Assembly: GCF_036013915.1 (NCBI RefSeq)
Contig: NZ_CP107899.1
Coordinates: 372,001 to 436,000 of the forward strand
Reading direction: 5' to 3'
DNA length: 64,000 nt
DNA from: Streptomyces sp. NBC_00464
GTDB taxonomy: Bacteria > Actinomycetota > Actinomycetes > Streptomycetales > Streptomycetaceae
Below are positions 3,881 to 35,362 of the stretch, one piece after another; the stretch's first letter is position 1, and the number at the start of each line of letters is the position of its first letter. Under the pieces are notes generated by a model. That model did no database searches. It worked only from the letters and a program-made list of their open reading frames with translations, and was not told the DNA's origin. The position numbers and the translations under genes were made by a program.

Positions 3881-6019
3881 ATGGTCGAATCACAGGATCG
3901 CGAACAGGTCAGGCAGCTCCTCGAATCCGTCCGGACCTCCGGCCGGACGGCGCTCACCGCCCCCGAGGGCAAGGTCGTGGCGGATGCGTACGGGATCGTG
4001 GTGCCCGGCGAGGAGCTGGCGCAGGACATCGACGAGGCGGTGGCCCATGCGGACCGGCTCGGCGGGCCCGTCGTACTGAAGATCGTCTCCCCCGATGTGC
4101 TGCACAAGACGGATGCCGGCGGGGTCGTCGTCGGTGTGGAGGGTGCCTCGCAGGTCAGGGAGGCGTTCTGCCGCATCATCGAGAACGTGCGGGCGTATGC
4201 GCCGGACGCACGGATCGACGGGGTGCAGGTGCAGCAGCTGGTGCCGCCCGGGCAGGAGGTGATCATCGGTGCGGTGACGGACCCGACGTTCGGCAAGGTC
4301 GTCGCCTTCGGCCTGGGCGGCGTGCTGGTGGAGGTGCTGAAGGACATCACCTTCCGGCTCGCGCCCGTCACCCCGGACGAGGCGCTGTCGATGCTCGACT
4401 CGATCGGCGCGGCGGAGATCCTGCGCGGGGTGCGCGGCGCGCCGGCGGTCGACCGGTGGGCGCTGGCCGAGCAGATCCGTCGGGTGTCCCAACTGGTCAC
4501 GGACTTCCCGGAGATCGCCGAGGTCGACCTCAACCCGGTGATCGCTTCCCCGGACGGTGCCGTCGCCGCCGATATCCGGATTCTGCTGGCCACCGAGGCC
4601 GTCAAGGAACGGCGCACGTACAGCCGCGAGGAGATCCTCGCCTCGATGCGCCGGTTGATGGAGCCTCACTCGGTCGCGGTGATCGGCGCCTCCAACGAGG
4701 CGGGAAAGATCGGTAATTCGGTGATGCGCAACCTCATCGACGGGGGTTTTGCCGGGGAGATCCATCCGGTCAATCCCCGGGCCGATGACATTCTGGGCCG
4801 CAAGGCGTACAAGAGTGTCACGGACGTTCCCGGCGAGGTGGATGTGGCGGTCTTCGCGATCCCTGCCAAGTTCGTGGCGTCGGCGCTGGAGGAGGTGGGC
4901 CGCAAGGGCATCGCGAACGCGGTCCTGATTCCGTCCGGCTTCGCCGAGACCGGTGAACAGGCGTTGCAGGACGAGATCGTGGCGATCGGCGAGCGGCACG
5001 GCGTGCGGCTGCTGGGTCCCAACATCTACGGCTACTACTCGACGTGGCAGGACCTGTGCGCCACGTTCTGCACCCCGTACGACGTGAAGGGCGGGGTGGC
5101 GCTGACGTCCCAGTCCGGTGGCATCGGCATGGCGATCCTCGGCTTCGCCCGTTCGACGAAGACCGGTGTCTCGGCGATCGTCGGGCTCGGCAACAAGTCG
5201 GACCTCGACGAGGACGATCTGCTGACCTGGTTCGGCGAGGACCCACACACCGAGTGCATCGCGATGCACCTGGAGGACCTCAAGGACGGGCGCGCCTTCG
5301 TGGAGGCGGCGCGGGCGACCGTACCGAAGAAGCCGATCGTGGTGCTGAAGGCGGGCCGTACGAGCGCGGGCGCGAAGGCGGCCGGTTCCCACACCGGGGC
5401 GCTGGCCGGCGACGACGCCGTGTACGACGACATCCTGCGCCAGGCAGGAGTGATCAGGGCGCCCGGCCTGAACGACATGCTGGAGTACGCGCGGGCACTG
5501 CCCGTGCTTCCGGCACCCAAGGGCGACAACATCGTCATCATCACCGGCGCGGGCGGATCCGGTGTACTGCTCTCCGACGCGATCGTGGACAACGGCCTGT
5601 CGCTGATGGAGATCCCGCCGGATCTCGACTCCGCGTTCAAGGCGTTCATCCCGCCGTTCGGCGCGGCCGGGAACCCGATCGACATCACGGGCGGTGAGCC
5701 GCCGTCGACGTACGAGGCGACGATCAGGCTCGGCATGGAGGACCCGCGCATCCACGCGCTGGTCCTGGGCTACTGGCACACGATCGTCACCCCGCCGATG
5801 GTCTTCGCCGAGCTGACCGCCCGGGTGGTCCAGGAGTTCCGGGACCGCGGGATCGAGAAGCCGGTCGTCGCGTCGCTGGCCGGGGACACCGAGGTCGAGG
5901 AGGCCTGCGCGTATCTCTTCGAGCGCGGCGTCGTCGCGTACCCCTACACCACCGAGAAGCCGGTCGCGGCGCTCGGTGCGAAGTACCGCTGGGCAAGGGC
6001 CGCGGGGCTGCTGACCTGA
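3881..6019 (+). CDS. ADP-forming acyl-CoA synthetase (acetate-CoA ligase type)
   Basis: 712 residues combining an ATP-grasp (beta-like) domain at about 1-235, a CoA-binding Rossmann domain from about 255 (SVAVIGASNEAGKIGNSV), and succinyl-CoA-ligase-like domains to the end. This is the fused ADP-forming acyl-CoA synthetase layout in the beta-then-alpha order. The phospho-histidine is probably in AGSHTGALAGDD. Such enzymes interconvert acyl-CoA + ADP + Pi with free acid + ATP. In this operon the natural candidates are formyl-CoA or oxalyl-CoA: either energy-conserving cleavage of formyl-CoA or priming of the Frc cycle (inference). The start lies 2 nt after frc, so the two are translationally linked. 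Confidence 0.8.
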   Translation: MVESQDREQVRQLLESVRTSGRTALTAPEGKVVADAYGIVVPGEELAQDIDEAVAHADRLGGPVVLKIVSPDVLHKTDAGGVVVGVEGASQVREAFCRIIENVRAYAPDARIDGVQVQQLVPPGQEVIIGAVTDPTFGKVVAFGLGGVLVEVLKDITFRLAPVTPDEALSMLDSIGAAEILRGVRGAPAVDRWALAEQIRRVSQLVTDFPEIAEVDLNPVIASPDGAVAADIRILLATEAVKERRTYSREEILASMRRLMEPHSVAVIGASNEAGKIGNSVMRNLIDGGFAGEIHPVNPRADDILGRKAYKSVTDVPGEVDVAVFAIPAKFVASALEEVGRKGIANAVLIPSGFAETGEQALQDEIVAIGERHGVRLLGPNIYGYYSTWQDLCATFCTPYDVKGGVALTSQSGGIGMAILGFARSTKTGVSAIVGLGNKSDLDEDDLLTWFGEDPHTECIAMHLEDLKDGRAFVEAARATVPKKPIVVLKAGRTSAGAKAAGSHTGALAGDDAVYDDILRQAGVIRAPGLNDMLEYARALPVLPAPKGDNIVIITGAGGSGVLLSDAIVDNGLSLMEIPPDLDSAFKAFIPPFGAAGNPIDITGGEPPSTYEATIRLGMEDPRIHALVLGYWHTIVTPPMVFAELTARVVQEFRDRGIEKPVVASLAGDTEVEEACAYLFERGVVAYPYTTEKPVAALGAKYRWARAAGLLT

Positions 6020-7572: not shown

Positions 7573-8742
7573 CTACTTGCGCAGCGCCGCCATGCCCTCG
7601 TAGCTGATCCGTGCCTGCTTCAGGGACTGGGCGAGGTCCGTCGAGCTCGGTGCGGTGTCCTGCTCGACCATCGGGTTGCGGTAGTTCGCCTCGCCGACGC
7701 GGCGGAAGAAGGTCCGGTAGTCGATGACCCCCGTGCCGAAGGGGACCATGTCGTAGCCGTCGCCACTCGCCGTGTTGACGATGCCGTCCTTGGCGTGGAA
7801 CAGCGGGTAGCGCTTGTTGTTCCCGCGGACCACTGCGGCGGGGTCGAAGATGTTCTCCCGCTGCGATCCGTCGAGCGCGGTGTAGGTGTGGAACTTGTAC
7901 TGGGCGACGTGCGCCCAGTAGACGTCCATCTCCAGCCATACGGTCTTCGGGTCGGTGACCTTGAGGAAGTACTCCAGCTTGCGGATGCCCGAACTGCGGG
8001 TGGGCCGCCCCTGTTCGTCCAGCGGACCGCCGTCGAGCAGGAAGCCGTAGGCCGCGTCGTGGTTGTGGGTGTACAGCTTGATGCCCGCACGGTGGGCGAT
8101 CTGCCCCAGTGCGTTCCACTTGTCGGCGGCCACGTCCCAGTCGGCGCGGTAGGCGCTGCCGGTGGGGTCGCCTCCGGTGCCCATGTGGTCCATGCCGAGG
8201 ATGTTGGCTATTTCCAGGTGCCGCTTGAACTGGTCGAGGTCGCTCTGACTCAGGGGCCAGGAACCCGGGATGAAGCCGTGGTTGCCCTGGGCGCGCAGTC
8301 CGTAGTCGTCCAGCCACGAGCGCAGCAGCTTCGCGCCCTCCACCGTCTCCAGGTTGTTTCCGCCGGGGGCGTTGGCGTGCTGGCCGTATCCGGCGAACTC
8401 GACCTGCTTGTAGCCGTAGCGGGCCAGCTCCTTGAAGACGTCACGGAAGCCCGAGGGCAGGGTGGTGCTGAGCGGGTCCCGGCCCGTGGCGTCGCGCACG
8501 GTGTACAGGATGATGCCGCGCTTGTGCGCCGGCACCAGAGCCTGTCCGTGTCCGTGGCCATGACCGTGGTCGTGCCCCGGACCGGAGGCGGGCTGGGCGA
8601 AGGCCGGCGATGCGCCGAAGACGGGCGCGGCGATCGCGGCCGCCCCGACAGCCGTGCAGGTGCTGAGGAAGCGGCGGCGGTCGATGCCGAGGCTGCGGCG
8701 CAGGGCGCCGTCCGTTCCGGATGCGTCGTTGTACACGGTCAC
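7573..8742 (-). CDS. Tat-exported sugar isomerase/epimerase-like TIM-barrel protein
   Basis: 389 residues. The N-terminus has a twin-arginine signal (DRRRFLST at 21-28, then a hydrophobic stretch ending near SPAFAQ), followed by a histidine-rich linker (GPGHDHGHGHGHGQ) that could bind metal. The rest is an AP-endonuclease-2/xylose-isomerase-like TIM barrel with likely metal ligands in THNHDAAYG, WLEMDVYW and LFHAKDG. Secreted members of this fold act on sugars and oxidised glycosides; the precise substrate is not readable here. It lies 49 nt downstream of the eboF-like gene on the same strand, so it may be co-transcribed with the ebo-like operon. Homologues of the sugar module further upstream make a role in 3-keto-glycoside chemistry possible (inference). 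Confidence 0.75.
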   Translation of the reverse strand: MTVYNDASGTDGALRRSLGIDRRRFLSTCTAVGAAAIAAPVFGASPAFAQPASGPGHDHGHGHGHGQALVPAHKRGIILYTVRDATGRDPLSTTLPSGFRDVFKELARYGYKQVEFAGYGQHANAPGGNNLETVEGAKLLRSWLDDYGLRAQGNHGFIPGSWPLSQSDLDQFKRHLEIANILGMDHMGTGGDPTGSAYRADWDVAADKWNALGQIAHRAGIKLYTHNHDAAYGFLLDGGPLDEQGRPTRSSGIRKLEYFLKVTDPKTVWLEMDVYWAHVAQYKFHTYTALDGSQRENIFDPAAVVRGNNKRYPLFHAKDGIVNTASGDGYDMVPFGTGVIDYRTFFRRVGEANYRNPMVEQDTAPSSTDLAQSLKQARISYEGMAALRK

Positions 8743-8791: not shown

Positions 8792-10189
8792 TCATGCGAG
8801 GCCGGCCAGCGTGAGGAGCAGGGACTTCACTTCGGTGGCCCGGACGGGGCCGGTGAACGCATGGGGGGTGGAGCAGAGGATGAGCGGACCTTCGTCGTCG
8901 CTCAGGGGGAGGCGGCCGTGGCTGCCGCGAATGGGTGACGGATCGAGTGGCACGACGGCCATGCGGTAGCGCATGCCGAGCTTCTTGCGGGCGACCGCCG
9001 TGACCGCCTTGACCCGTACGTACGGGTCCTCGGGGTCCATGAAGAGCTCGACGGGGTCGTAGCCGGGTTTGCGGTGGATCTCGACGAGCTGGGCGAAGTC
9101 GGGCGCCCGTTCGTCGTCGAGCCAGTAGTAGTACGTGAACCAGGCGTCCGGTTCGGCGACGGCGACCAGCTCGCCGGAGCGGGGGTGGTCCAGGCCCTGG
9201 GCCTTCTTGCCCTCGTCGTCGAGGAGCTGCTCGATGCCCGGGAGGTCCGCCAGGGCCGCGCGGGCCGCTTCGAGGTCCTCGGGACGGCGTACGTAGATGT
9301 GGGCGATCTGGTGGTCCGCGACGGCGAAGGCCCGGGAGGCCATCGGGTCCAGGTACTCCATGCCGTCCTGGGTGTGGACCTCCAGGAGTCCGGCCCGGCG
9401 CAGCGCTCGGTTGATGTCGACGGGCCGGTCGACGCGGGTGATGCCGTACTCGGAGAGGGCGATGACGGTGCGGCCCTCGCGGCGGGCGTCGTCCAGCAGC
9501 GGGGCCACGGCCCGGTCGAGGTCGGCGGCGGCCTTGAAGGCGCGCGGGTCGTCGGGGCCGTAGCGCTGGAGGTCGTAGTCGAGGTGCGGGAGGTAGCACA
9601 GGGCGAGGTCGGGGTGGCGGGTGTCCAGGATGTGGCGGGTGGCGTCGATGATCCACTGGGAGGAGACGAGGTCGGCGCCGGGCCCCCAGAAGTGGAAGAG
9701 GGGGAAGGTGCCGAGCTTGTCGGTGAGTTCGTCGTGGAGGGCGGGCGGGCGGGTGTAGCAGTCGGGTTCCTTGCGGCCGTCGGCGTAGTAGACGGGGCGC
9801 GGGGTGACGGTCCAGTCGGTGTCGGCGCCCATGGCGTACCACCAGCAGATGTTGGCGACGGTGTAGCCGGGGTGGGTCCGGCGGGCGGCGTCCCAGAGCT
9901 TGTCGCCCTCGACGAGCCCGTTGTGCTGGCGCCACAGGAGCACATCGCCGATTTCGCGGAAGTACCAGCCGTTGGCGACGATGCCGTGCTCGGCGGGGGT
10001 GGTGCCGGTGAGGAAGGTGGACTGGGCGGCGCAGGTGACGGCGGGCAGCACGGTGCCGAGCGGGGCGTGGGTGCCGGACTGTCCCAGCGCCTTGAGGTGG
10101 GGCATGTGGGCGAGGAGGCGGGGGGTGAGTCCGACGACGTCGAGGACGAGGAGGGGTGTGGGGCTGGGCGTCGTCCCGGCGGTGGTCAT
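8792..10189 (-). CDS. eboF: EboF-like alkaline phosphatase/nucleotide pyrophosphatase family protein
   Basis: 465 residues of the type I phosphodiesterase/nucleotide pyrophosphatase fold. Metal ligand Asp17 (LLVLDVVG), probable nucleophile Thr52 (LPAVTCAAQSTFLTG) and ADHQIAHIY near the middle are visible. Where most superfamily members have SDHG, this protein has SEYG, so one metal site may be altered or the protein may bind rather than hydrolyse. There is no signal peptide. The ATG overlaps the eboE stop by 4 nt (ATGA). In ebo/edb clusters of cyanobacteria and Pseudomonas the sixth gene is a phosphatase of this kind, hence the name. The substrate is unknown. Confidence 0.75.
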   Translation of the reverse strand: MTTAGTTPSPTPLLVLDVVGLTPRLLAHMPHLKALGQSGTHAPLGTVLPAVTCAAQSTFLTGTTPAEHGIVANGWYFREIGDVLLWRQHNGLVEGDKLWDAARRTHPGYTVANICWWYAMGADTDWTVTPRPVYYADGRKEPDCYTRPPALHDELTDKLGTFPLFHFWGPGADLVSSQWIIDATRHILDTRHPDLALCYLPHLDYDLQRYGPDDPRAFKAAADLDRAVAPLLDDARREGRTVIALSEYGITRVDRPVDINRALRRAGLLEVHTQDGMEYLDPMASRAFAVADHQIAHIYVRRPEDLEAARAALADLPGIEQLLDDEGKKAQGLDHPRSGELVAVAEPDAWFTYYYWLDDERAPDFAQLVEIHRKPGYDPVELFMDPEDPYVRVKAVTAVARKKLGMRYRMAVVPLDPSPIRGSHGRLPLSDDEGPLILCSTPHAFTGPVRATEVKSLLLTLAGLA

Positions 10190-11361
10190 GGCAGCTCCTT
10201 GAGGCCGAGGTCGACCAGGAGGTCGCGGGCGAGGGTGAGTTCGGCGGCGATGCCGTCGGCGAGCTGGGCGCGGGTGCGGGGGCGCAGCTCGGCCGGGAGT
10301 GCCTGCCAGGTGTACGTCTCGACCTCCAGGTGCCGGGTGAGCGGCCGGGCCCCGCCGACCAGGCGGGCCAGCGTGGCCCGGAGCACGGGCAGGGTGGAGG
10401 TGAGCGGGGGCGCCGGCGGTGCGTGCAGGGGTACGTGGAAGTGGGCGCGCCAGGGGGCGCTGTCGGGCAGGGCGTCGCCGGTGACGGCTTCGTCGAGGTC
10501 GTCGGTGCCGCGCAGTCCGGCAGCGGTGGCGATGCGGGTCTGGTGCAGGAAGCGGGGCTCGGCGAAGGCGGCGAGGGCGGCACGCACCTCGGGGAGGTGG
10601 GGGTGCTCGGCGTGCAGGGCCGCGGAGAGCTGCGCCTTGACGGCGGGGATGCCGGCGGCGGTGAGCGCGTCGAGTGCGGTGTCCGGGTCCTCGAAGGAGG
10701 TGGCGAGGTGGCAGGTGTCGATGCAGACGCCGATGCGTGCGTGGCCGACGGCGGTGAGGGGGGCGATGGCGTCGGCCGTGGTCTCGACGGTGCATCCGGG
10801 TTCGGGTTCGAGGCCGATCCGGATGGACTTGCCCGTGAGTTCGGCGAGTGCGTCGAGGCGTTCGCCGAGGGTGGTGAGCGCGGCGAGTGCGGTGCGGGCC
10901 GCTTCGGGGTCGCCGGTGTACGGGGTGCGCCAGGCGAGCGGGAGGGTGGAGATGGTGCCGTCGGTGACGTCGTCGGGCAGGAGTGTGGCGAGGAGCCGGG
11001 CGAGGTCGGTGGTGTGGGCCAGGCGTTCGGGGTCGGTCCAGTCGGGCTTGTAGACCCGGTACTTGACCTCCTCGGCGCCGAATCCCTCGTAGGGGAAGCC
11101 GTTGAGTGTGACGACTTCGAGGCCGCGGCGGTCGAGTTCGGCGCGCAGGGAGCGCAGTTGCGAGGGGTCGTTGATCAGGGTGCGGGCGGCGTCCCTGGCG
11201 AGCCAGAGGCCGATGCCGAGGCGGTCGCGGCCGAGTCGTCTGCGTACGGGTTCGCAGTGGTCGCGCAGTTGGGTGCGGACGCCTTCGAGGGTTTCGGCGG
11301 GGTGGACGTTGGTGCAGTACGCGAGGTGGACGACGGTGCCGTCGGGGTGGCGGAAGCGCAT
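10186..11361 (-). CDS. eboE: Metabolite traffic protein EboE (TIM-barrel, AP-endonuclease-2-like)
   Basis: 391 residues starting MRFRHPDGTVVHLAYCTNVH. The CTNVHPAE start and the barrel blocks (TLNGFPYEGFG, GLEPEPGC, GVCIDTCHLA) mark the EboE family, a xylose-isomerase-like TIM barrel. The start at 11361 is preferred over the longer frame reaching 11532 because that extension is arginine/proline-rich shadow sequence and 11361 lies 4 nt after the eboB stop. It acts in the ebo cluster, which in Nostoc is needed to move a scytonemin precursor to the periplasm; its reaction is unknown. Confidence 0.8.
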   Translation of the reverse strand: MRFRHPDGTVVHLAYCTNVHPAETLEGVRTQLRDHCEPVRRRLGRDRLGIGLWLARDAARTLINDPSQLRSLRAELDRRGLEVVTLNGFPYEGFGAEEVKYRVYKPDWTDPERLAHTTDLARLLATLLPDDVTDGTISTLPLAWRTPYTGDPEAARTALAALTTLGERLDALAELTGKSIRIGLEPEPGCTVETTADAIAPLTAVGHARIGVCIDTCHLATSFEDPDTALDALTAAGIPAVKAQLSAALHAEHPHLPEVRAALAAFAEPRFLHQTRIATAAGLRGTDDLDEAVTGDALPDSAPWRAHFHVPLHAPPAPPLTSTLPVLRATLARLVGGARPLTRHLEVETYTWQALPAELRPRTRAQLADGIAAELTLARDLLVDLGLKELP

Positions 11362-11365
11362 GGGC

Positions 11366-12214
11366 TCACTCCCCGCCGCGCAGGATGGAGTTGCCCTCGT
11401 GGAGCGGTTCGGGGGCGGCGGTGTCGAGGTGGAGGCGGCCGCTCTGGCCGTAGAAGGCGACGGGGTTGCGCCACAGCACCTGGTCGACGTCGTCGTCGGT
11501 GAAGCCGGCGGCGAGCATGGCGTCGCCCACATGGCGGGTCTTCAGCGGGTCGCTCCTGCCCCAGTCGGCTGCGGAGTTGACGAGGATCCTCTCGGTGCCG
11601 TGGAGCTTGAGGACGGCGACCATGCGGTCCTCGTCCATCTTGGTGTCGGGGTAGATGGAGAAGCCGGCCCAGCAGCCGCTGTCGAGTGCGTCCTTCACGG
11701 TCGTCTCGTTGAGGTGGTCGAGCAGCACCAGTTCCGGGGCGAGGTGGGACTCCCGTACGACGTCGATGGTGCGGCGCAGACCGGCGAGTTTGTCGCGGTG
11801 CGGTGTGTGGACGAGTGCGGGCAGTCCGTGGTCGGCGGCGAGCTGGAGCTGGGCGGCCAGCGCGTGGTCCTCGGCCGGGGTCATCGAGTCGTAGCCGATC
11901 TCGCCGACGGCGACGACGGAGTCCTTGACCAGGTAGCGGGGCAGGGCGTCCAGGACGGGGGTGCAGCGGGGGTCGTTCGCCTCCTTGGGGTTGAGGGCGA
12001 GCGTGCAGTGGTGGGCGATGCCGTACTGGGCGGCGCGGAAGGGCTCCCAGCCGAGCAGCGCGTCGAAGTAGTCGAGGAAGCTGGCGGGCGAGGTGCGGGG
12101 CTGGCCGAGCCAGAAGGAGGGTTCGACCAGGGCGCGGACCCCGGAGTCGTACATCGCCCGGTAGTCGTCCGTGGTGCGGGAGGTCATGTGGATGTGGGGG
12201 TCGAAGATGCGCAT
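11366..12214 (-). CDS. eboB: EboB-like TatD-family metal-dependent hydrolase
   Basis: 282 residues of the amidohydrolase/TatD fold. The N-terminal HxH metal site is FDPHIHMTSR, a bridging glutamate is likely in VAVGEIGYDS, and further histidines occur in PALVHTPHRD and LLDHLNETT. TatD proteins are usually DNases or phosphohydrolases; the EboB branch belongs to the ebo cluster and its substrate is unknown. The start overlaps the eboA stop by one base (TGATG), so the pair is probably translationally coupled. Confidence 0.8.
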   Translation of the reverse strand: MRIFDPHIHMTSRTTDDYRAMYDSGVRALVEPSFWLGQPRTSPASFLDYFDALLGWEPFRAAQYGIAHHCTLALNPKEANDPRCTPVLDALPRYLVKDSVVAVGEIGYDSMTPAEDHALAAQLQLAADHGLPALVHTPHRDKLAGLRRTIDVVRESHLAPELVLLDHLNETTVKDALDSGCWAGFSIYPDTKMDEDRMVAVLKLHGTERILVNSAADWGRSDPLKTRHVGDAMLAAGFTDDDVDQVLWRNPVAFYGQSGRLHLDTAAPEPLHEGNSILRGGE

Positions 12215-12882
12215 CAGGACTCCTCCGTGGGGGCGGCGGGGGCGGCGGGGCCGGGGGCCGTGAGGGCGAGTACGCGGTGCTGGCCGGCGGGGACGGGGCG
12301 GCCCGCGGCGATGCGTTCCGCCGCGTAGTCGCCCAGCATCCGGGCGAGTTCCGCGTCGCCGCGCGATCTTCGGGCCAGCTGGTCGACGGCCTCGACGGGG
12401 ACACCGGTGAACAGGCACTTGAGGACGGCGTGGCGCCAGTTGTGCGGGTCGAGGTGGGTGCCCGCGTACGGGCCGACGGCTGCGGCGACCAGCGTGGTGT
12501 CGTTGGTGCGCAGGGCGTCCTCGACGAGCGGCAGGGCGGTGGCGCCGAGGTCCAGTGCGGGCAGGGTGCGCAGAACGGCGCGGCGTTCGGCGGCCGTGCC
12601 CTGTTCGTAGAGGCGGGTCAGGGCGGGCAGGGCGGTGCGGGCCTCGATGATCAGCAGGGCGCGTACGGAGTCGGCGTGTTCGAGTCCGCAGTACCGGCCG
12701 GCGGCTGCGTACCGCAGCTCCCACGGAGGTACGGCGTAGCTGTCCGAGGGCGCGGTGTCCGGGTGGGCTGCGGAGTGGGCGGCCTCGGCGAGGGCCTCGT
12801 CGAGCCAGGCGCGCGCGGCTCCGCCGAGCAGGGTGTCGAGTTCCTTGCGGGTCAGGAGCGGGGTGGGCGGGTTCTGCGTCAT
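12214..12882 (-). CDS. eboA: EboA domain protein
   Basis: 222 residues, mostly helical, with the pattern of EboA proteins (WELRYAAAGRYCGLEHADS, then HNWRHAVLKCLFTGVPV and an ARMLGDYAAERIAAGR region). No catalytic motif is evident and no function is established for the family beyond its need in ebo/edb clusters. It has a clear ribosome site (AGGGAG) and starts 21 nt after the upstream epimerase-like gene, the only real gap within the operon. The C-terminus is Ala/Pro-rich low complexity. Confidence 0.75.
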   Translation of the reverse strand: MTQNPPTPLLTRKELDTLLGGAARAWLDEALAEAAHSAAHPDTAPSDSYAVPPWELRYAAAGRYCGLEHADSVRALLIIEARTALPALTRLYEQGTAAERRAVLRTLPALDLGATALPLVEDALRTNDTTLVAAAVGPYAGTHLDPHNWRHAVLKCLFTGVPVEAVDQLARRSRGDAELARMLGDYAAERIAAGRPVPAGQHRVLALTAPGPAAPAAPTEES

Positions 12883-12903
12883 GGCGTGCTCCCTTCGGCG
12901 GGC

Positions 12904-13761
12904 TCAGCGGTTCGACGGGCGGTGCTTGTTGAGGAAGTCGAGGGAGGTGCGGGCGAGTTCGGGGCCCGCGTGGGAGTGGCGGGGCAGCTCGACGACGGTG
13001 AGTCCGGCGTATCCGGTGTCGCCGAGCGCGTCGAGTGCGGCGAGCACGGGCGGGAAGTCGATCTCGCCGTCGCCGAAGGGGAGGTGCTCGTGGAGGCCGC
13101 GGCGCATGTCCTCGATCTGTACGTGGCGCAGCCAGGGGGCGGCGTCGCGTACGCAGTCGACGGGCAGGGCGGGCTCCAGGCACTGGCAGTGGCCGATGTC
13201 GAGGGTGAGCCCGAGCGGTTCCGGGTCGCCGCTCAGCACCCGCAGGTGGTGGAAGTCCGCGAGGTTGGCGAGGAGGTGTCCGGGCTCCGGCTCGATCGCG
13301 AGGGGCACCCCGGCCCGTTCGGCGGCGTCCAGGACCGGCCCGAGGGCGTCGGTGAGCCGCTGCCAGGCGGTGTCCGGGGCGGTGTCCGGGGGCCTGATGC
13401 CGCTGAAGCAGTGCACGGCGTGGGCGCCGAGCCCGGCGGCGACGTCGACGGCCCGGACGAGCAGCGCGGTCCTGGCCGCGCGCGCCTCGGGGTCCGGGTC
13501 GAGGAGCGAGGGGCCGTGCTTGCGGCGCGGGTCCAGGACGTAGCGGGCCCCGGTCTCCACGGTGACGCCGAGCCCGAGCTTCTGGAGCCGGGCGGCGACG
13601 TGGCGGGTGCGGGCGGCGAGGTCGGGGGCCATCGGGTCGAGGTGCATGTGGTCGAGGGTCAGGCCGACGCCGTCGTAGCCGAGGTCGGCGAGGAGCCCGA
13701 GGGCGTCGTCCAGGCGTAGGTCGGTGAGCCCGTTGGTGCCGTAGCCGAGGCGGAGTGTCAT
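12904..13761 (-). CDS. Sugar phosphate isomerase/epimerase-like TIM-barrel protein of the ebo-like operon
   Basis: 285 residues of the AP-endonuclease-2/xylose-isomerase-like fold starting MTLRLGYGTNGLTDLRLDDA. Metal and substrate residues are suggested by AIEPEPGHLLAN, LTLDIGHCQC and VQIEDMRRGLHEHLPFGDG. The ATG overlaps the prenyltransferase stop by 4 nt. The cyanobacterial ebo cluster has a single such barrel (EboE); here it is a second barrel, so this operon carries an extra isomerase step. Upstream cyclitol synthesis suggests an inositol-like or oxidised sugar substrate (inference). Confidence 0.75.
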   Translation of the reverse strand: MTLRLGYGTNGLTDLRLDDALGLLADLGYDGVGLTLDHMHLDPMAPDLAARTRHVAARLQKLGLGVTVETGARYVLDPRRKHGPSLLDPDPEARAARTALLVRAVDVAAGLGAHAVHCFSGIRPPDTAPDTAWQRLTDALGPVLDAAERAGVPLAIEPEPGHLLANLADFHHLRVLSGDPEPLGLTLDIGHCQCLEPALPVDCVRDAAPWLRHVQIEDMRRGLHEHLPFGDGEIDFPPVLAALDALGDTGYAGLTVVELPRHSHAGPELARTSLDFLNKHRPSNR

Positions 13762-14642
13762 GTGGGGCTCACCTTCCGGGAGAGGGCGCGGGCGAGCGGG
13801 ACCAGGCCCATGAGCGCGAGCCCCGTGCCGGTGGCTCCGGCGCGTGCGGCGAGGGCGGCCTGGAGCGGGATCATCGACCGGATGCCGCTGCCGACGGCGC
13901 GCTGGGTGAGCGGCGGCGACGGGTTGAGTGCGGCGTGCGCGAGGGGACGTACGGCGGTGCGGAGGTAGGCGCCGGTGAGCGCGGTGAGGAGGATCCGGGC
14001 GGGGGCGCCCCGGGAGGCCGGCCCTTCGCGCACCACGGCCCCGCCGATGCCGGCAACGGCCGCGAGAGCGGCGAGCGGCGCGGTGGTGGATCCGCCCTGG
14101 GTCTCGTGACGGGAGACGGTGGTGACCGCGTAGGTGTGGGTGCTCAGCAGAGCGGCGGCGGTCAGTGCGGCGCGGGTCGCCCGGGGCGCCGGGGCCGTCC
14201 GCGTGGCCGTCGCTCCCAGCAGCAGGTCCAGGCCCCGCGCCGCCGCCATCGCGGCGGGGCCCGCCGGGGTGTGCTTCAGACGGAGGTCGTACGCCCATAC
14301 GGTCGCTGCGAGGCCCGTGGCGACGGTGAATGCCGGACGGCCCGCCCGTGCGGCGAGGGCGAGGCCCGCCGCGGTCAGTGCGCCCGCCGCGGCGAGCGCG
14401 GCGCGGGGCGTGATCCGGCCCGACGGGATCGGGCGGTGCGGCCGGTCGACGGCGTCCTCGTCGCGGTCGGCCCAGTCGTTGAGCGCCATGCCCGCCTCGT
14501 ACAGACAGAGGGAGGCGCAGGCGGCCAGGGCCGTGGAGCGGCCGGGCCGCCGTCCCACGGCTGCCGCGCCCGCGAGGGCGTCGCCCGGGACGGTGAACAG
14601 TGCGGAGACCCTGAGCAGTTCCGCCCAGGCGCCTGCCGTCAC
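13758..14642 (-). CDS. eboC: UbiA-family prenyltransferase (EboC-like)
   Basis: 294 residues with about 8-9 membrane helices. The first aspartate-rich motif is NDWADRDEDAVDRPHRP (NDxxDxxxD), which binds prenyl diphosphate through Mg; a weaker second site is near YDLRLKH. It belongs to the UbiA superfamily of membrane prenyltransferases that attach an isoprenoid to a polar or aromatic acceptor; EboC is the UbiA member of ebo/edb clusters. It starts with GTG, overlapping the cyclitol synthase stop as GTGA. With the upstream gene it could make a prenylated cyclitol or related lipid carrier in the membrane (inference). Confidence 0.8.
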   Translation of the reverse strand: MTAGAWAELLRVSALFTVPGDALAGAAAVGRRPGRSTALAACASLCLYEAGMALNDWADRDEDAVDRPHRPIPSGRITPRAALAAAGALTAAGLALAARAGRPAFTVATGLAATVWAYDLRLKHTPAGPAAMAAARGLDLLLGATATRTAPAPRATRAALTAAALLSTHTYAVTTVSRHETQGGSTTAPLAALAAVAGIGGAVVREGPASRGAPARILLTALTGAYLRTAVRPLAHAALNPSPPLTQRAVGSGIRSMIPLQAALAARAGATGTGLALMGLVPLARALSRKVSPT

Positions 14643-15757
14643 TTCTCCCCCCGCAGCCGCTCGGCGAAGGCCAGCAGCGCCAGGTACTGCTCGGACAGTG
14701 CGGCCGGTCCGCCGTCCGGGTCCTTGAAGTAGAAGCCGAGCTCGGGCCGCGCGCCGGTGAGGCCCACCTCGTGGGCGCGGGCCAGCAGCCGGGCCAGGTC
14801 GAGCACCAGGGGTGCGGCGAGGGCGGAGTCGCAGCCCTGCCAGGTGGTCTGGAGCACCATGCGTGCGCCGAGGAAGCCGTCGAAGGCGATGTGGTCCCAG
14901 GCGGTCTTCCAGTCACCGAGCGCCGGGACGTCGTCGATGTGGACCTCGCCCTCGGGGGCGGCGCCGAGGGTGTCGGCGAGGACGCGTTCCTTGCCGGCGT
15001 TCTTCGCCGCGGCGGCGGCCGGGTCGGCGAGCGCGGCGCCGTCTCCGCCGCCCAGCAGATTGGTGCCGGACCAGGCCCTTACGGGCAGGGCGCGCTGCAC
15101 GAACATCGGGGCGAGGACCGAGCGCAGCAGGGTCTGGCCCGTCTTGCCGTCGCGGCCGGCGTGAGGAAGTCCGCAGGCCGCGACGGAATCCTGGAGGGCG
15201 GGGCTGCGGAGCCCCGTGGAGGGGGTGAAGTTGACGTACGGGCAGCCGGCCCGGAGGGCCGCCGCGGCGTAGAGCGAGCTGGCGGGCAGCCGCTCGGCGC
15301 CGGCGGCGGGTGCCGGTTCGGTGGAGGAGACGTTGACGACGACGGTCCTGGCCAGGCTGTTGCGCCGGCCGAATTCGGTGAGGTCGGCCGCGAACGCTGT
15401 GATGAGTTCCTCGTCCGTGCGGGTGTCGCCGGGAAGGGGGCCGCCGGGGCGTATCTCCGCGTCTGCGGCGGCGAGTTCGGCTCGTACGGCCGACGGGAGT
15501 CCGTGCGGCAGCACTCCCCCGGCAGCCAGGGCCTCGGCCCGTTTGGGAAGCGGACAGTCCAGGATGTCGTGGCCGCCGAAGACGAGCGAGGTCACGGGTG
15601 GCAGACCGCTGTCGGCGAACGGGGCGGTCTCGGTGACCATGCCCGCCCCCGGGTGGAGGCCCGCCGCGATCGCCGCGCAGCCCGCCGTTGCGGTGGTGGC
15701 GACGGAGCCGCGTGCTCCGATGAACCAGACTCCGGTACGTACGCCGGTTGTTGACAC
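14639..15757 (-). CDS. Inositol-3-phosphate synthase-like protein
   Basis: 372 residues with an NAD-binding Rossmann start (GVWFIGARGSVATTA) and MIPS-type blocks (GRDGKTGQTLLRSVLAPMF, SGTNLLGGGDG, NAGKERVLADTLG, FDGFLGARMVLQTTWQGCDSALAAP). The family performs the NAD-dependent cyclisation of glucose-6-phosphate to inositol-3-phosphate in the cytosol. It starts with GTG after GGGAGG. As first gene of the ebo-like operon it occupies the role held by the sugar phosphate cyclase EboD elsewhere: both make a cyclitol from a sugar phosphate. It is not expected to be the housekeeping inositol synthase. Confidence 0.8.
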   Translation of the reverse strand: MSTTGVRTGVWFIGARGSVATTATAGCAAIAAGLHPGAGMVTETAPFADSGLPPVTSLVFGGHDILDCPLPKRAEALAAGGVLPHGLPSAVRAELAAADAEIRPGGPLPGDTRTDEELITAFAADLTEFGRRNSLARTVVVNVSSTEPAPAAGAERLPASSLYAAAALRAGCPYVNFTPSTGLRSPALQDSVAACGLPHAGRDGKTGQTLLRSVLAPMFVQRALPVRAWSGTNLLGGGDGAALADPAAAAAKNAGKERVLADTLGAAPEGEVHIDDVPALGDWKTAWDHIAFDGFLGARMVLQTTWQGCDSALAAPLVLDLARLLARAHEVGLTGARPELGFYFKDPDGGPAALSEQYLALLAFAERLRGEK

Positions 15758-15875: not shown

Positions 15876-18800
15876 CTACGCCGAGGGCAGTTCCTTGAGC
15901 TGGATGTTGCGGAAGGAGACCTGGTCGTCCGCCCCGTGGTTCTGGAGGCCGATGTAGCCGTCCTTGAGGCTGCGGACCGGGTCGGTGTTGGTGAAGTCGT
16001 TGATCTTCACTCCGTTGAGGAAGATCTGGAGCCGTTCACCCTGGACCTTGATCTCGTAGCTGTTCCACTGCCCCGGCGGGCGCAGCACCTGGTCGCGGGC
16101 CTTGATGTTGGCCGCCTTGAAGGTGTAGACGGAGCCGGTGGTGCGGTCGACGGCGTCGGAGGCGTCGATCTGGACCTCGTAGCCGTTGTTCACCGCGGAC
16201 CAGGGGTCGTCGGACTCCGGGAAGCCGACGAAGACGCCGGAGTTGTCGTCGCCCGACAGCTTCCAGTCGAGCTTCAGGGAGTACGACTTCAACTCCTTGG
16301 CCTGGTAGGTCAGCAGGCCCATGCCGCCTTCGGAGCGCAGCTCGCCGTCGACCACGTCGAACTTCCCGGGTCCGGCCTGCTTCCAGCCTTCGAGAGTCGT
16401 GCCGTTGAAGATCGACCGGTAGCCGGTGTCCGGCTTGCAGTCGGCCTTGACCTGGCCGGCCGCGTACCGTACCCCGCCGAGCAGGAGTCCCCGGAAGTCC
16501 GCGTCGGCGTACGACTCCTTCGTGTGGCCGAGGCCGGTGTAGAAGGAGCGGCCGCCCTGGTAGGTCTGGCACCAGGTGATCGGGTGATCGCCCTTCATGG
16601 TGCCGCCGGTGTAGGTCGTCTCGTCCAGGGTGGCGAGGACCTTCACCTTGTCGCGCGGGTTGGTGCGGTAGTTGTACAGCTCGTCGGTCCGCTCCCAGGC
16701 GTCGCCCAGGTGGGCGGTGGCCGGGTTCTTGTGGTCCTCGACGCGGACGGTGACGGGCTGGATGGCGGGGTGGCCGGAGAAGTACGCGCCGACGAGTCCG
16801 CCGTAGAAGGCCCAGTCGTACTCGGTGTCGGCGGCGGCGTGGATGCCCATGTAGCCTCCACCGCCGGCGATGTAGTTCTCGAAGGCCTTCTGCTGGTCGG
16901 CGTTGAGGACGTCACCGGTCGTCGACATGAAGACGACGGCGTCGTAGCGGGCCAGGTTGGCGGTGGTGAACTGGCCGGCCTCCTCGGTGGCGTCGACCGT
17001 GATGTTGCTGTCCTTGCCGAGTTCCTTCAGTGCGGCGATGCCCTCGGGGATCGCGTCGTGGCGGAAGCCGGCGGTCTTGGAGAAGACCAGGACGCGCTTG
17101 GCGGTCTTGTCGGGCGGGGTGTTGGAGAGCTCGAAGTCGTCGATGTCGTAGAGCGCGCCTTCGCCGCCCTTGAACACCAGGAAGAGCTCGGTTGCCTTCT
17201 TCGGTACGCCGCGCAGGGGGACGTCGATGTCCTGGAAGGTCTCCCAGCCGCCGGTCACCGGCACGGGTGCGGAGCCGAGGATCGTCCCGGTCGCCGAGCC
17301 GGACCGTACTTCGAGGAAGCCGCCCGCGCCGCCGGAGGAGATCCGGGCGGTGAGCTTGGTGGAGTCGCCGAGGATGTACGGCTTGAAGGAGATCCAGTCG
17401 TCGTTGTCGATGTCGCCGACGGTCTTGCCGCCCTCGGCGTTCGCCTTGTCGTACGTCTTGATGCCGGACGAGTCGTTGAAGTGCTCGGCCTGGCGGTGGC
17501 GCGGCTGGAGCTGAGACTGGTCGTGGCCGGTCAGTGCGGCCTGGCCGCCGCCCCCGCCGTCGGTGTACGAGGCGTCGATGACCCCGAAGATGTTGGCGTT
17601 GGGGTCGTGCCCGCCGTCCATCTCGGTCTTGATGGTGCCGGTGCAGCCGTGGGCCGAGGTGATCGGGTGGCCGTGGCTGTCGTGGCCGAGGACGAAGCGG
17701 ACCTCGATCTTGGAGCAGTCGATCGTGCCGTCCTCGGGATCGGTGACGGTGACCTTGAACGGGATCTCGTCGCCGAAGGTGAACAGCTGTCCGTCACCGG
17801 GGAGTTCCAGGTTGACCTTGGGCGCGGTGTTGCCGACGGTCACATGGACGCTGGCCGAACCGGTGCGCCCGGAGGGGTCCTTCGCGGTGACGGTGGCGGT
17901 GTAGGTGCCGTTCTTCTTGTACGTGTACGCGGGGCCGGCGGCCGTGGAGGTTCCTCCGTCGCCGAAGTCCCAGGCATACGTGAGGGCGTCACCGTCGCCG
18001 TCCGCGGTGCCGGCCGAGGAGAACTGCACCTTCAGCGGCGCGATGCCCGATGTCTTGTTGGCCGCGGCCTCGGCGATCGGGGAGCGCCCCCCTGTGGCGT
18101 TCTCGATGCGGTAGAGCGCGGAGTTCTCGTCGCCGCCGAACCAGGAGAGGCCGTAGTCCAGGACGTACAGCGCCCCGTCGGGTCCGAAGGCCATGTCCAT
18201 GATCTGGGTGCCGGACCACGGGATGTCGTTGATGGACTGGACCTTGCCGTCGGCGTCCTGCTCGATCCGCTTGATCCACTGGCGGCCGAACTCACCGGCG
18301 AAGAAGTCTCCGTCGTACGCCTCGGGGAACTTCACGGGCGAGTCGAGGTCGGCGTCGTAGTGGTAGACGGGTCCGCCCATCGGGGACTCCGAGCCGGTGC
18401 CGAACTCCGGGACGGACGCACCGTCGTACGGGATCCAGGCGGCCTGGGCCGGGGGCAGGTCGACGAGGCCGGTGTTGTGCGGCGAGGTGTTCTTCGGGGC
18501 GGCGCAGTCGAAGGCCGCGCCGGAGGTCTTGGTGGCGAAGTCGTAGTCGATGAACGGGTCGTTGTTGCCCGTGCAGTACGGCCAGCCGAAGTTCCCGGCC
18601 TTGGTCACCCGGGCGAACTCGACCTGCCCGGCCGGTCCGCGCTTGGGGTCGGCCGCACCGGCGTCCGGCCCGTAGTCACCGACGTAGACGATGCCGGTGG
18701 CCTTGTCGACGGAGAAGCGGAACGGGTTGCGGAAGCCCATCGCGTAGATCTCGGGGCGGGTCTTGTCCGTCCCCGGCGCGAAGAGGTTGCCGTCCGGGAC

Positions 18801-19595
18801 GGTGTACGAGCCGTCGTCGGCGACCTTGATGCGGAGGATCTTGCCGCGCAGGTCGTTGGTGCTGCCCGCGGAGCGGCGGGCGTCGAAGGCCGGGTTGCGG
18901 TCCGGACGCTCGTCGATGGGGCTGAAACCGTCGGAGGCGAAGGGGTTGGAGTCGTCGCCGGTCGACAGGTACAGGTTGCCGTCCGCGTCGAAGTCGATGT
19001 CGCCGCCGACGTGGCAGCACATGCCGCGGGACGTCTGGACGTCGAGGACCTTCTTCTCACTGCCGAGGTCGAGCGTGCCGTCCTCGTTGAGGACGAAGCG
19101 GGAGAGCCGGTTGACTCCGTCGAACGGGGCGAAGTCCGCGGCGGTGCCGGTCTCGGGGGCGTCGCCGGCGGGGGTGTCCAGCGGGGGTGCGTAGTAGAGG
19201 TAGATCGCCCGGTTCTCGCTGAACTTCGGGTCGACCCCGATGCCCTGGAGGCCTTCCTCGTCGTGCGAATAGACGGGGATGACGCCGGAGATCCGGGTGT
19301 TGCCGGCGCTGTCGGTGATACGGAGCTCGCCGCTGCGTGAGGTGTGCAGCACGCTGCGGTCGGGGAGCACGGCCAGCGACATCGGCTCGCCGGTCTCGGC
19401 GGCTCCCTTGGCGAGGGTGACCTGCTGGAAGTCCTCGGCGACCGGGGCGGGGGCGGGATGGTCGTCGTGGGCGGCGGCCGTGCCCGCTGTGGCACTCAGG
19501 CTGAGGGTGGCGGCGGCGAGGAGGCCACCGGTGAACAGAGCGAGGGATTTACGGAGGCGGAGCCTTGTTCGGGTCCTGCTGCGGGTTCTGTGCAC
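15876..19595 (-). CDS. Secreted multidomain protein: sugar dehydrogenase-like propeller, PKD, CBM, ThuA, DUF1080
   Basis: 1239 residues. An Arg-rich signal peptide ends near residue 42 (GTAAA-HDD). About 55-500 is a glucose/sorbosone dehydrogenase-type beta-propeller (SRGMCCHVGGDIDFDADGN, YAMGFRNPFRFS); 505-590 is a PKD domain (YAWDFGDGGTS); about 595-660 is Ig-like; about 690-825 resembles a family-6 carbohydrate-binding module; 833-1045 is ThuA-like, a glutamine-amidotransferase fold (GYMGIHAAADTEYDW, GLGHTKESY); 1055-1237 is DUF1080 (SIFNGTTLEGW, SGVFVGF), the fold of 3-keto-disaccharide hydrolases. It should work outside the cell on glycans or disaccharides. The upstream region contains an operator shared with the ROK repressor gene. 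Activity of the propeller and ThuA parts is not established. Confidence 0.85.
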   Translation of the reverse strand: MHRTRSRTRTRLRLRKSLALFTGGLLAAATLSLSATAGTAAAHDDHPAPAPVAEDFQQVTLAKGAAETGEPMSLAVLPDRSVLHTSRSGELRITDSAGNTRISGVIPVYSHDEEGLQGIGVDPKFSENRAIYLYYAPPLDTPAGDAPETGTAADFAPFDGVNRLSRFVLNEDGTLDLGSEKKVLDVQTSRGMCCHVGGDIDFDADGNLYLSTGDDSNPFASDGFSPIDERPDRNPAFDARRSAGSTNDLRGKILRIKVADDGSYTVPDGNLFAPGTDKTRPEIYAMGFRNPFRFSVDKATGIVYVGDYGPDAGAADPKRGPAGQVEFARVTKAGNFGWPYCTGNNDPFIDYDFATKTSGAAFDCAAPKNTSPHNTGLVDLPPAQAAWIPYDGASVPEFGTGSESPMGGPVYHYDADLDSPVKFPEAYDGDFFAGEFGRQWIKRIEQDADGKVQSINDIPWSGTQIMDMAFGPDGALYVLDYGLSWFGGDENSALYRIENATGGRSPIAEAAANKTSGIAPLKVQFSSAGTADGDGDALTYAWDFGDGGTSTAAGPAYTYKKNGTYTATVTAKDPSGRTGSASVHVTVGNTAPKVNLELPGDGQLFTFGDEIPFKVTVTDPEDGTIDCSKIEVRFVLGHDSHGHPITSAHGCTGTIKTEMDGGHDPNANIFGVIDASYTDGGGGGQAALTGHDQSQLQPRHRQAEHFNDSSGIKTYDKANAEGGKTVGDIDNDDWISFKPYILGDSTKLTARISSGGAGGFLEVRSGSATGTILGSAPVPVTGGWETFQDIDVPLRGVPKKATELFLVFKGGEGALYDIDDFELSNTPPDKTAKRVLVFSKTAGFRHDAIPEGIAALKELGKDSNITVDATEEAGQFTTANLARYDAVVFMSTTGDVLNADQQKAFENYIAGGGGYMGIHAAADTEYDWAFYGGLVGAYFSGHPAIQPVTVRVEDHKNPATAHLGDAWERTDELYNYRTNPRDKVKVLATLDETTYTGGTMKGDHPITWCQTYQGGRSFYTGLGHTKESYADADFRGLLLGGVRYAAGQVKADCKPDTGYRSIFNGTTLEGWKQAGPGKFDVVDGELRSEGGMGLLTYQAKELKSYSLKLDWKLSGDDNSGVFVGFPESDDPWSAVNNGYEVQIDASDAVDRTTGSVYTFKAANIKARDQVLRPPGQWNSYEIKVQGERLQIFLNGVKINDFTNTDPVRSLKDGYIGLQNHGADDQVSFRNIQLKELPSA

Positions 19596-19978: not shown

Positions 19979-20983
19979 TCAGTCCTTGCCGCCGAACGCC
20001 GCGTCGAACGACGCGCTCGGCGGGTCGAAGTCGAACCGCTTCAGCGACGTCAGCGCCTCCGGCGCACCGGCCAGCCGGTCCATGCCCGCGTCCTCCCACT
20101 CCACCGATACCGGGCCCTCGTAACCGATGGACCGCAGCATCCGGAACACGTCCTCCCAGGGCACGTCCCCGTGCCCCGCCGAGACGAAGTCCCAGCCGCG
20201 GCGCGGGTCGCCCCAGGGCAGGTGGGAGCCGAGCCGGCCGTTGCGGCCGTCCAGGCGCTTGCGGGCCTCCTTGCAGTCCACGTGGTAGATCCGGTCCCGG
20301 AAGTCGTACAGGAAGCCCACCGGGTCCAGGTCCTGCCACACGAAGTGGCTCGGGTCGAAGTTCAGCCCGAACGCCGGCCGGTGGTCCACCGCCTCCAGCG
20401 CGCGGTGCGTGGTCCAGTAGTCGTACGCGATCTCGCTGGGGTGGACCTCGTGGGCGAACCGCACCCCCTCCGCGTCGAAGACGTCGAGGATCGGATTCCA
20501 GCGCTCCGCGAAGTCCTCGTACCCGCGCTCGATCATGTGCGGGGGCACCGGCGGGAACATCGCCACCAGGTGCCAGATCGACGAGCCGGTGAAGCCGATG
20601 ACCGTGTCGACGCCGAAGGCGGCGGCGGCCCGTGCGGTGTTCTTGATCTCCTCGGCGGCCCGTCGCCGCACCCCTTCGGGCTCCCCGTCGCCCCAGATCC
20701 GGGCGGGCAGGATGCCCTGGTGGCGCTCGTCGATCGGGCTGTCGCAGACGGCCTGGCCGACCAGGTGGTTGGAGACCGCCCAGCACTTCAGCCCGTACTT
20801 GTCGAGCAGTTGGTGACGGCCCTCCAGATAGCCGGGGTCGGCCAGGGCCTTGTCCACCTCGAAGTGGTCGCCCCAGCAGGCCAGTTCGAGACCGTCGTAG
20901 CCGAAGTCACGGGCGTACCGGCAGACCTCCTCCAGGGGCAGATCGGCCCACTGACCGGTGAAGAGGGTGAAGGGACGGGGCAT
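19979..20983 (-). CDS. Sugar phosphate isomerase/epimerase family protein
   Basis: 334 residues of the AP-endonuclease-2/xylose-isomerase-like TIM barrel. Likely metal-binding blocks are [33 protein letters not shown] and [12 protein letters not shown]. It starts 12 nt after the Gfo/Idh/MocA gene, and the two are a common pair in cyclitol and 3-keto-sugar catabolism, where the dehydrogenase oxidises C3 and the barrel enzyme isomerises or eliminates. It is the last gene of the sugar operon. The substrate is unknown. It is cytosolic, with no signal peptide. Confidence 0.8.

Positions 20984-33337: not shown

Positions 33338-33347
<10 letters not shown>
31410..33347 (+). CDS. Formate dehydrogenase catalytic molybdopterin subunit lacking the N-terminal Fe-S domains
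   Basis: 645 residues. It begins directly with the molybdopterin oxidoreductase core (RLTHPLVRDTDG, ASWDEALDRAA). The active-site cysteine is Cys92 next to His93 (SCNRTCHAPSVAGL), matching Sec140-His141 of E. coli FdhF, so the enzyme is of the Cys type. The MGD-binding C-terminal domain ends with CPIAGTAEFKASAVRIE. Canonical NAD-linked FdsA proteins (about 950 residues) carry [2Fe-2S], 4Fe-4S and Molybdop_Fe4S4 domains ahead of this core; here they are absent and encoded by the gene at 35359-36219. It oxidises formate to CO2. Its 3' end overlaps the next gene by 10 nt. Confidence 0.88.

Positions 33348-35358
<2,011 letters not shown>

Positions 35359-35362
<4 letters not shown>

Follow-up and report, generated by a model that had tools for sequence, protein, structure and literature searches.

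The ebo cluster has been described from cyanobacteria, Bacteroidota and eustigmatophyte plastids (PMC5133447, PMC6282210), and an isoprenoid-cyclitol, that is, a prenylated ring, was already proposed as its product in 2016 (PMC5133447). In Pseudomonas, a full ebo cluster with an eboD homologue is known as edb ('edible'), and nematodes eat the mutants (PMC6282210). UbiA-297, the EboC of Maribacter, farnesylates quinoline acids in vitro (PMC9235831). For actinobacteria, a fusion of EboA to a xylose-isomerase-like protein has been mentioned as data not shown (PMC5133447). Here we describe an ebo-type operon of Streptomyces sp. NBC_00464 in which EboD, the usual cyclase, is replaced by an inositol-phosphate synthase (MIPS)-type cyclase together with a second TIM barrel, and which is paired across genomes with a predicted secreted dehydrogenase that we call D6. 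The window analysed is a stretch of 64,000 nucleotides (contig NZ_CP107899.1, positions 372,001 to 436,000), and positions below are counted from its first letter.

As in the classical cluster, orthologues of EboA, EboB, EboE and EboF and a UbiA enzyme are joined in one operon. In the window EboD is lacking, an archaeal-type MIPS is present together with an additional TIM barrel in its place, and the EboC-like enzyme scores below the EboC equivalog cut-off (NF035940, 145.5 bits versus 250). Because EboD is absent, we regard the operon as a variant of ebo and not as a standard member. The Pseudomonas edb cluster shares the full ebo set and is set apart by its eboD homologue, a distinction drawn from description only; UbiA-297 shares the ebo context and the Asp-rich prenyltransferase motif (DXXDXXXD, at residue 56 of the window's EboC-like protein) and differs in having EboD as partner. 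The seven genes lie tightly on the minus strand, from 15757 to 8792, in the order MIPS-type cyclase, UbiA, TIM1, EboA, EboB, EboE and EboF, with successive gaps of -4, -4, 21, -1, 4 and -4 bp (Table 1). These gaps and the family scores confirm the near-gapless set of seven named families reported in a first-pass annotation of this DNA. That annotation had also placed the cyclase at the head of the operon; the same-strand run is instead headed by D6, which ends 118 bp before the MIPS gene.

The cyclase is best matched in the PDB by the Archaeoglobus fulgidus MIPS 1u1i (195.7 bits), compared with 41.8 bits for 6k96, a five-membered-cyclitol-phosphate synthase, and 24.4 bits for the mycobacterial enzyme 1gr0. 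In the alignment with archaeal MIPS, residues K252, K256, K284, K345, N233 and D239 fall on active-site positions, where the lysines, Asn and Asp have catalytic roles. The positions altered in 3qvw, 3qvx and 3qw2 are conserved as well. With both Pfam domains and all of these residues present, the protein is of the archaeal MIPS type; equivalent catalytic lysines have been given for a fungal enzyme (PMC11348189). It departs from its nearest solved relative, 1u1i, in context, since it belongs to a dedicated prenyltransferase operon and stands beside a separate housekeeping MIPS, with which it shares 25% identity. The possibility that it is itself the housekeeping enzyme INO1 of mycothiol synthesis was rejected on the existence of that second gene and on its TIGR03450 score (23.2 bits against a cut-off of 638). 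A second, distant MIPS was found in nine of ten ebo-positive actinobacteria, the tenth (G268) having the operon MIPS only; in G308 and G360 the distant MIPS is the sole one.

A genome search with two EboD queries found no EboD in any of the ten ebo-positive actinobacteria. The best match of the sugar-phosphate-cyclase family reached 164 bits, whereas EboDs of other phyla score at least 347 bits, save 179 and 216 bits for two at locus ends. An EboD hidden elsewhere in the genome, which the first-pass annotation had raised against its own proposal, was thus rejected for these ten. Outside the actinobacteria, among the best 80 of 590 loci from an EboB-alignment search (Bacteroidota, Cyanobacteria, Planctomycetota and Proteobacteria), none carried MIPS, and EboD was present in 52 of the 55 with both EboB and EboE. 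Seven non-actinobacterial ebo loci on plasmids were opened; each has a gene annotated as 3-dehydroquinate synthase (EboD), which adjoins EboE in five of them and lies one or two genes off in the other two, and in none is a MIPS annotated. The MIPS-type cyclase and the second TIM barrel therefore occupy the place of EboD, as had been claimed from the letters alone.

Conservation of the set was followed in 296 actinobacterial genomes (phylum sample) and in 199 genomes of the same genus (genus sample). EboE occurs in 14 of the 296, above cut-off in 13, and the order MIPS-EboC-TIM1-EboA-EboB-EboE-EboF is kept in 13 of the 15 EboE loci compared, namely that of the window and 14 others from actinobacteria; of the two exceptions, L018 is a second copy that lacks MIPS and L030 a broken locus. 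Because so many EboE loci share this order, the association of the seven genes is above chance. In the genus sample, 137 genomes have EboE (134 above cut-off) and 134 have a MIPS-like gene at E 1e-20 or better, with both in 132, EboE only in five, MIPS only in two and neither in 60 (phi 0.92). Two of the EboE-only genomes are about 80% complete (G344, G484), in one the operon meets a contig end (G437), and in G308 and G360 we saw only an operon of the MIPS-less kind (type 2, below). The MIPS gene is thus conserved with the other six, and the concern that it might be an unrelated neighbour is ruled out by its co-occurrence with EboE. Among the best 120 of 7333 matches, the closest MIPS relatives with an organism name are from Streptomyces or, in two cases, Kitasatospora.

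D6 combines GSDH, PKD, CBM6, ThuA and 3-keto-disaccharide-hydrolase domains behind a signal-like N-terminus. Its glucose/sorbosone-dehydrogenase (GSDH) part scores 127.6 bits with PF07995 and aligns at the active-site His and Arg-Asn in HMMER alignments, in keeping with the GSDH fold; the predicted model, with a pLDDT of only 63, matches the soluble quinoprotein glucose dehydrogenases 2ism, 1c9u and 2g8s. D6 has the motifs CCHVGG and GFRNPF, against G(H/I)RNPQ in solved enzymes of the pyrroloquinoline quinone (PQQ) type, and PqqC was above cut-off in only three of 30 genomes with the operon and/or D6. A literature search on ThuA/GSDH proteins found nothing.

At E 1e-100 or better, D6 was found in 135 of the 199 genus genomes, together with EboE in 132; EboE stood alone in five, D6 alone in three, and 59 had neither (phi 0.907). 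The three are not clear exceptions to the pairing: in G305 the stretch between EboF and D6 is unread (N), the D6 of G418 lies at the end of its contig, and that of G426 has MIPS beside it, again where a contig ends. Apart from these, no EboE-negative genus genome had D6 at this threshold. In the phylum sample, with the threshold set at E 1e-60 or better for the GSDH part and six ThuA-only matches left uncounted, D6 accompanies EboE in 13 of 14 genomes and occurs in two of the 282 others (G031, G258), leaving 280 with neither. Moreover, at least 12 ebo-positive genomes (G300, G321, G346, G349, G350, G358, G397, G416, G446, G452, G457 and G128) carry another D6 copy on the same contig at a distance of 0.35 Mb or more, and D6 matches stand on contigs other than that of the operon in G097, G162, G268 and G279. 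A control neighbour (3977-6019) compared with EboE over the 199 genomes gave 79 with both, 58 and 12 with one alone, and 50 with neither (phi 0.36). Because of the unlinked copies and the low phi of the control, linkage is not the whole cause of the D6 correlation, and we rejected linkage alone as its explanation. When the ebo trait is placed on an rpoB tree that covers 120 of these 199 genomes (EboE-negative, 37; EboE-positive, 80; and G308, G418 and G426), it needs 28 changes, or at least 26 when nodes below 0.9 support are left free; shuffled labels need 32 on average and 24 at the lowest. The trait is thus scattered almost at random on this 1.8-kb rpoB tree, whose limited resolution may raise the count of changes.

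Genes for related beta-propellers are also found near ebo genes in other settings. In two Bacteroidota, a D6-type GSDH gene directly follows EboF, after 9 bp in Allomuricauda (L114) and 130 bp in Flagellimonas (L117), in operons with EboD and no MIPS. Further GSDH genes occur in the surroundings of ebo in loci of Roseobacter, Granulosicoccaceae, Tepidamorphus and Pedobacter, and in Ketogulonicigenium a PVC-type propeller and a cytochrome c do so. A propeller of the ScyE, GSDH or PVC type was found near 18 of the 55 non-actinobacterial loci with EboB and EboE, a raw count, uncorrected for a neutral background rate: eight belong to cyanobacterial loci of the ScyE type, as the known scytonemin cluster would lead one to expect, nine are GSDH-type (weakly so in L115 and L161) and one is PVC-type, and four (L122, L139, L179 and L186) also served as profile seeds.

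Among Streptomyces plasmids, for which seven of 29 records with EboE were opened, a ScyD/ScyE gene precedes the MIPS-type operon on all three plasmids opened from one group, those of NBC_00028, S. camelliae and NBC_00663 (L347-L349). With NF033206 (cut-off 80), the first two score 255.4 and 243.2 bits, compared with 400.4 and 401.9 bits for cyanobacterial controls; the call for the third is that of the record annotation only. This recalls the scytonemin cluster with ScyD/ScyE, where ebo stands beside a secreted beta-propeller of the ScyE family (PMC2726228, PMC6282210). Unlike that cluster, the three plasmid loci have no ScyA, ScyB or ScyC annotated in their gene tables, and the neighbour in the window is D6. 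Secreted oxidoreductases, which the first-pass annotation did not mention in predicting a product that serves metabolite transport, are the strongest association of the operon found here. This link is new: the titles and abstract openings listed, a set with most subscription papers outside it, contained no description of a MIPS-type ebo operon or of a link between ebo and GSDH proteins.

Two further arrangements were seen in other phyla. EboA-EboB pairs occur with no other ebo genes in the fetched stretch (L126, L141, L147, L148, L153, L165, L168, L185 and others), many of the pairs being from Planctomycetota and Kuenenia. The ebo genes of Flavobacterium, Aureibacter and Mycetohabitans (L109, L110, L111, L089, L085) are closely preceded by a ferritin-like gene, with PF12902 in the two tested, and a hypothetical gene of about 600 residues.

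Fourteen actinobacterial loci (L018, L064-L075 and L077, in genomes including G128, G302, G343, G393 and G427) hold the other six genes and no MIPS, the contig of L077 ending beside EboC. We call these type 2; most genomes that carry one have a type-1 operon elsewhere. Around these loci, genes for a gamma-glutamyltransferase, for a member of the inositol-monophosphatase family and for a CrtO-like FAD oxidase each recur in eight of the 14, a P450 in 11 and a Macro-domain protein in six. An inositol-phosphate phosphatase replacing MIPS at these loci would fit inositol as the source of the ring.

Table 1. Genes of the operon and of the same-strand run around it (positions in the window)
Feature	Position	Strand	Family evidence
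TIM-barrel (sugar phosphate isomerase-like) protein, twin-arginine-like signal	7573-8742	-	PF01261, 82.9 bits
EboF, type I phosphodiesterase/pyrophosphatase family	8792-10189	-	PF01663, 229 bits
EboE, TIM barrel	10186-11361	-	NF035939, 421.8 bits (cut-off 250)
EboB, TatD-like metal-dependent hydrolase	11366-12214	-	PF01026, 43.4 bits (cut-off 27)
EboA	12214-12882	-	NF035938, 156.3 bits (cut-off 50)
TIM1, xylose-isomerase-like TIM barrel (epimerase/isomerase/dehydratase superfamily)	12904-13761	-	PF01261, 136 bits
EboC-like UbiA prenyltransferase, SCO3242 family	13758-14642	-	NF045897, 397.2 bits (cut-off 260)
MIPS-like cyclase	14639-15757	-	PF07994, 107.7 bits; PF01658, 103.6 bits
D6, predicted secreted GSDH-PKD-CBM6-ThuA-3-keto-disaccharide-hydrolase protein, proposed client	15876-19595	-	Pfam domains
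TIM-barrel protein of neighbouring sugar system	19979-20983	-	PF01261
GFO/IDH/MocA oxidoreductase	20996-22129	-	
Sugar-binding protein of ATP-binding cassette (ABC) importer	22303-23343	-	PF13407
ABC permease	23417-24466	-	PF02653
ABC ATPase, two matched stretches	24463-25968	-	PF00005

Several operon genes were scanned against profiles as the longest reading frame, and their start positions are our choice. The UbiA enzyme is 25% identical to the EboC of Aureibacter. In TIM1, residues E157, D188, H213 and E258 are kept in the alignment with solved epimerases and presumably correspond to the E-D-H-E metal-site pattern of those enzymes. The predicted structure of EboA is all-helical and confident (pLDDT 91), the protein has invariant Arg, Lys and Glu residues, and a fold search against the PDB returned no relative below E 0.5 (best E 0.55). 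EboB is 49% identical to a Bacteroidota EboB; its HxH and further metal-site residues, which we take to be the TatD metal site, are invariant in an alignment of ten sequences. The best PDB match of EboE in a sequence search has E 0.0094, and EboF is 43-50% identical to non-actinobacterial EboF proteins, reaching 50% with that of Ketogulonicigenium. In L080:7567-8970, TIM1 and EboA are joined in a single reading frame, the type of fusion mentioned in PMC5133447.

The same-strand run extends past the operon on both sides, from 25968 to 7573, and takes in a sugar importer, a GFO/IDH/MocA oxidoreductase, TIM barrels and D6. The TIM barrel at its end begins 49 bp past EboF, and its protein cluster is present in 10 of 20 type-1 loci; a polyprenyl synthetase gene is adjacent in three of the 20, two of the three being Pfam-checked. 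Scans for sigma-70 promoters and terminators gave 0 and 1 sites, not exceeding shuffles, and an Rfam search gave 0 matches. Elsewhere in the window, the genes at 31410-35362, a molybdopterin oxidoreductase and NuoF-like ones, look like a set of the formate-dehydrogenase type, and 59197-61359, apart from the operon, encodes a second phosphodiesterase-family protein (PF01663) with an N-terminal Phage_holin_4_2 membrane domain.

Our tentative proposal, which we regard as possible, is that the operon makes a prenylated inositol-derived molecule that supports extracytoplasmic oxidoreductases, most likely as a redox cofactor or membrane electron carrier. Because the catalytic residues are intact, we infer that the archaeal-type MIPS would convert glucose 6-phosphate to inositol phosphate. 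TIM1, EboE and EboB, which have metal-enzyme folds, and the phosphodiesterase-type EboF may then reshape this compound, and the membrane protein EboC would add the prenyl chain, the order of steps being presumed. The product would be small, lipophilic and derived from a cyclitol; without being incorporated in end products, it would serve oxidoreductases outside the cytoplasm. Its main client here would be D6, and elsewhere ScyE-type or other GSDH-type beta-propellers. The prenylated cyclitol-type product put forward in the first-pass annotation is plausible in the light of the intact catalytic residues, the adjacent polyprenyl synthetase genes and the inositol-phosphatase-family gene of the type-2 loci. 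If the ebo enzymes did make such a redox cofactor or electron carrier, this would explain the departure of the D6 motifs and the scarcity of PqqC.

A bolder version, which we consider rather unlikely, is that the ebo product is a new membrane-bound or exported redox cofactor replacing PQQ in secreted beta-propeller oxidoreductases (D6/GSDH, ScyE and PVC-type). It would be a prenylated ring compound, derived from inositol in this operon and from a different cyclitol in others, with no shikimate route. If so, scytonemin dimerisation, extracellular 3-keto-sugar oxidation and recruitment to antibiotic clusters would be one phenomenon.

Several observations weigh against the main proposal. A GSDH-fold enzyme of S. 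coelicolor was solved with PQQ (title of 3das), so the fold can use PQQ. The D6-like ThuA-GSDH proteins of G031 and G258 (L099, L100) occur without EboE or EboB and are true exceptions, in G031 also without PqqC above cut-off; they are candidates for a different electron route. G279 has D6 copies and a damaged operon, with EboE in two pieces and neither MIPS nor TIM1 found. Conversely, G150 has the operon without D6, and so have G332, G348 and G460 with MIPS-type operons, MIPS and EboF being in pieces in G348. The vicinal cysteines of D6 are absent from the GSDHs near ebo in Roseobacter, Granulosicoccaceae and Tepidamorphus. In Nostoc, ebo mutants are described as retaining the monomer in the cytoplasm, unlike a scyE mutant. 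Finally, the gene tables, which are incomplete, list no propeller for the operons inside nonribosomal peptide synthetase (NRPS) and polyketide clusters.

Those operons bring in the main alternative, that a prenylated cyclitol lipid carries or translocates metabolites across the membrane, the substrates or products of D6, ScyE, NRPS or polyketide systems having to cross it. The operon lies within NRPS clusters on the plasmids of NBC_00376 and NBC_00987, and within a type II polyketide-like cluster on the AMCC400023 plasmid (L351). The amidase, glutamine-synthetase and purB-like genes of the latter suggest a possible likeness to kinamycin-type clusters. On the plasmid of NBC_01244, the gene table of a related type II polyketide cluster shows EboE (L350:9995-11173) and no other ebo gene. 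SCO3242 and SCO3243 are likewise among the genes of the calcium-dependent antibiotic cluster (PMC3610822). These settings would be consistent with a general role in export for a product that is not itself incorporated. On the other side, what the operon mainly correlates with in Streptomyces is a protein predicted to be secreted, which itself needs no small-molecule export, the operon encodes no transporter, and unlinked D6 copies are hard to square with one exported metabolite. We judge export somewhat unlikely as the function of the operon.

A different alternative concerns the ring. The cyclase may make something other than inositol phosphate, either a five-membered cyclitol in the manner of Ari2 or an EboD equivalent from sedoheptulose 7-phosphate, so that the final product would be the classical ebo product. 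The enzyme does sit where EboD is missing, D6-type GSDH genes accompany the one and the other type of operon in different phyla, and 6k96 is a distant relative. However, it is far nearer to a genuine archaeal MIPS, with the catalytic positions kept, and we hold this alternative to be improbable. Catabolism, with D6, the TIM barrels and the GFO/IDH/MocA oxidoreductase degrading 3-keto-glycosides and the Ebo enzymes processing a cyclitol released outside, would suit the ThuA and 3-keto-disaccharide-hydrolase domains and the sugar importer genes of the same-strand run, but is very unlikely, because MIPS is biosynthetic, a UbiA prenyltransferase has no evident catabolic role, and the operon also occurs in NRPS, polyketide and ScyE contexts without annotated sugar genes.

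The ebo genes span several bacterial phyla and algal plastids, and the replacement of EboD by MIPS tells what kind of starting ring is needed. D6, as a near-perfect genomic partner, provides a measurable enzyme with which ebo function can be tested in ordinary Streptomyces. If the redox role proposed here is true, a new class of cofactor would tie together sunscreen synthesis, sugar oxidation and antibiotic clusters.

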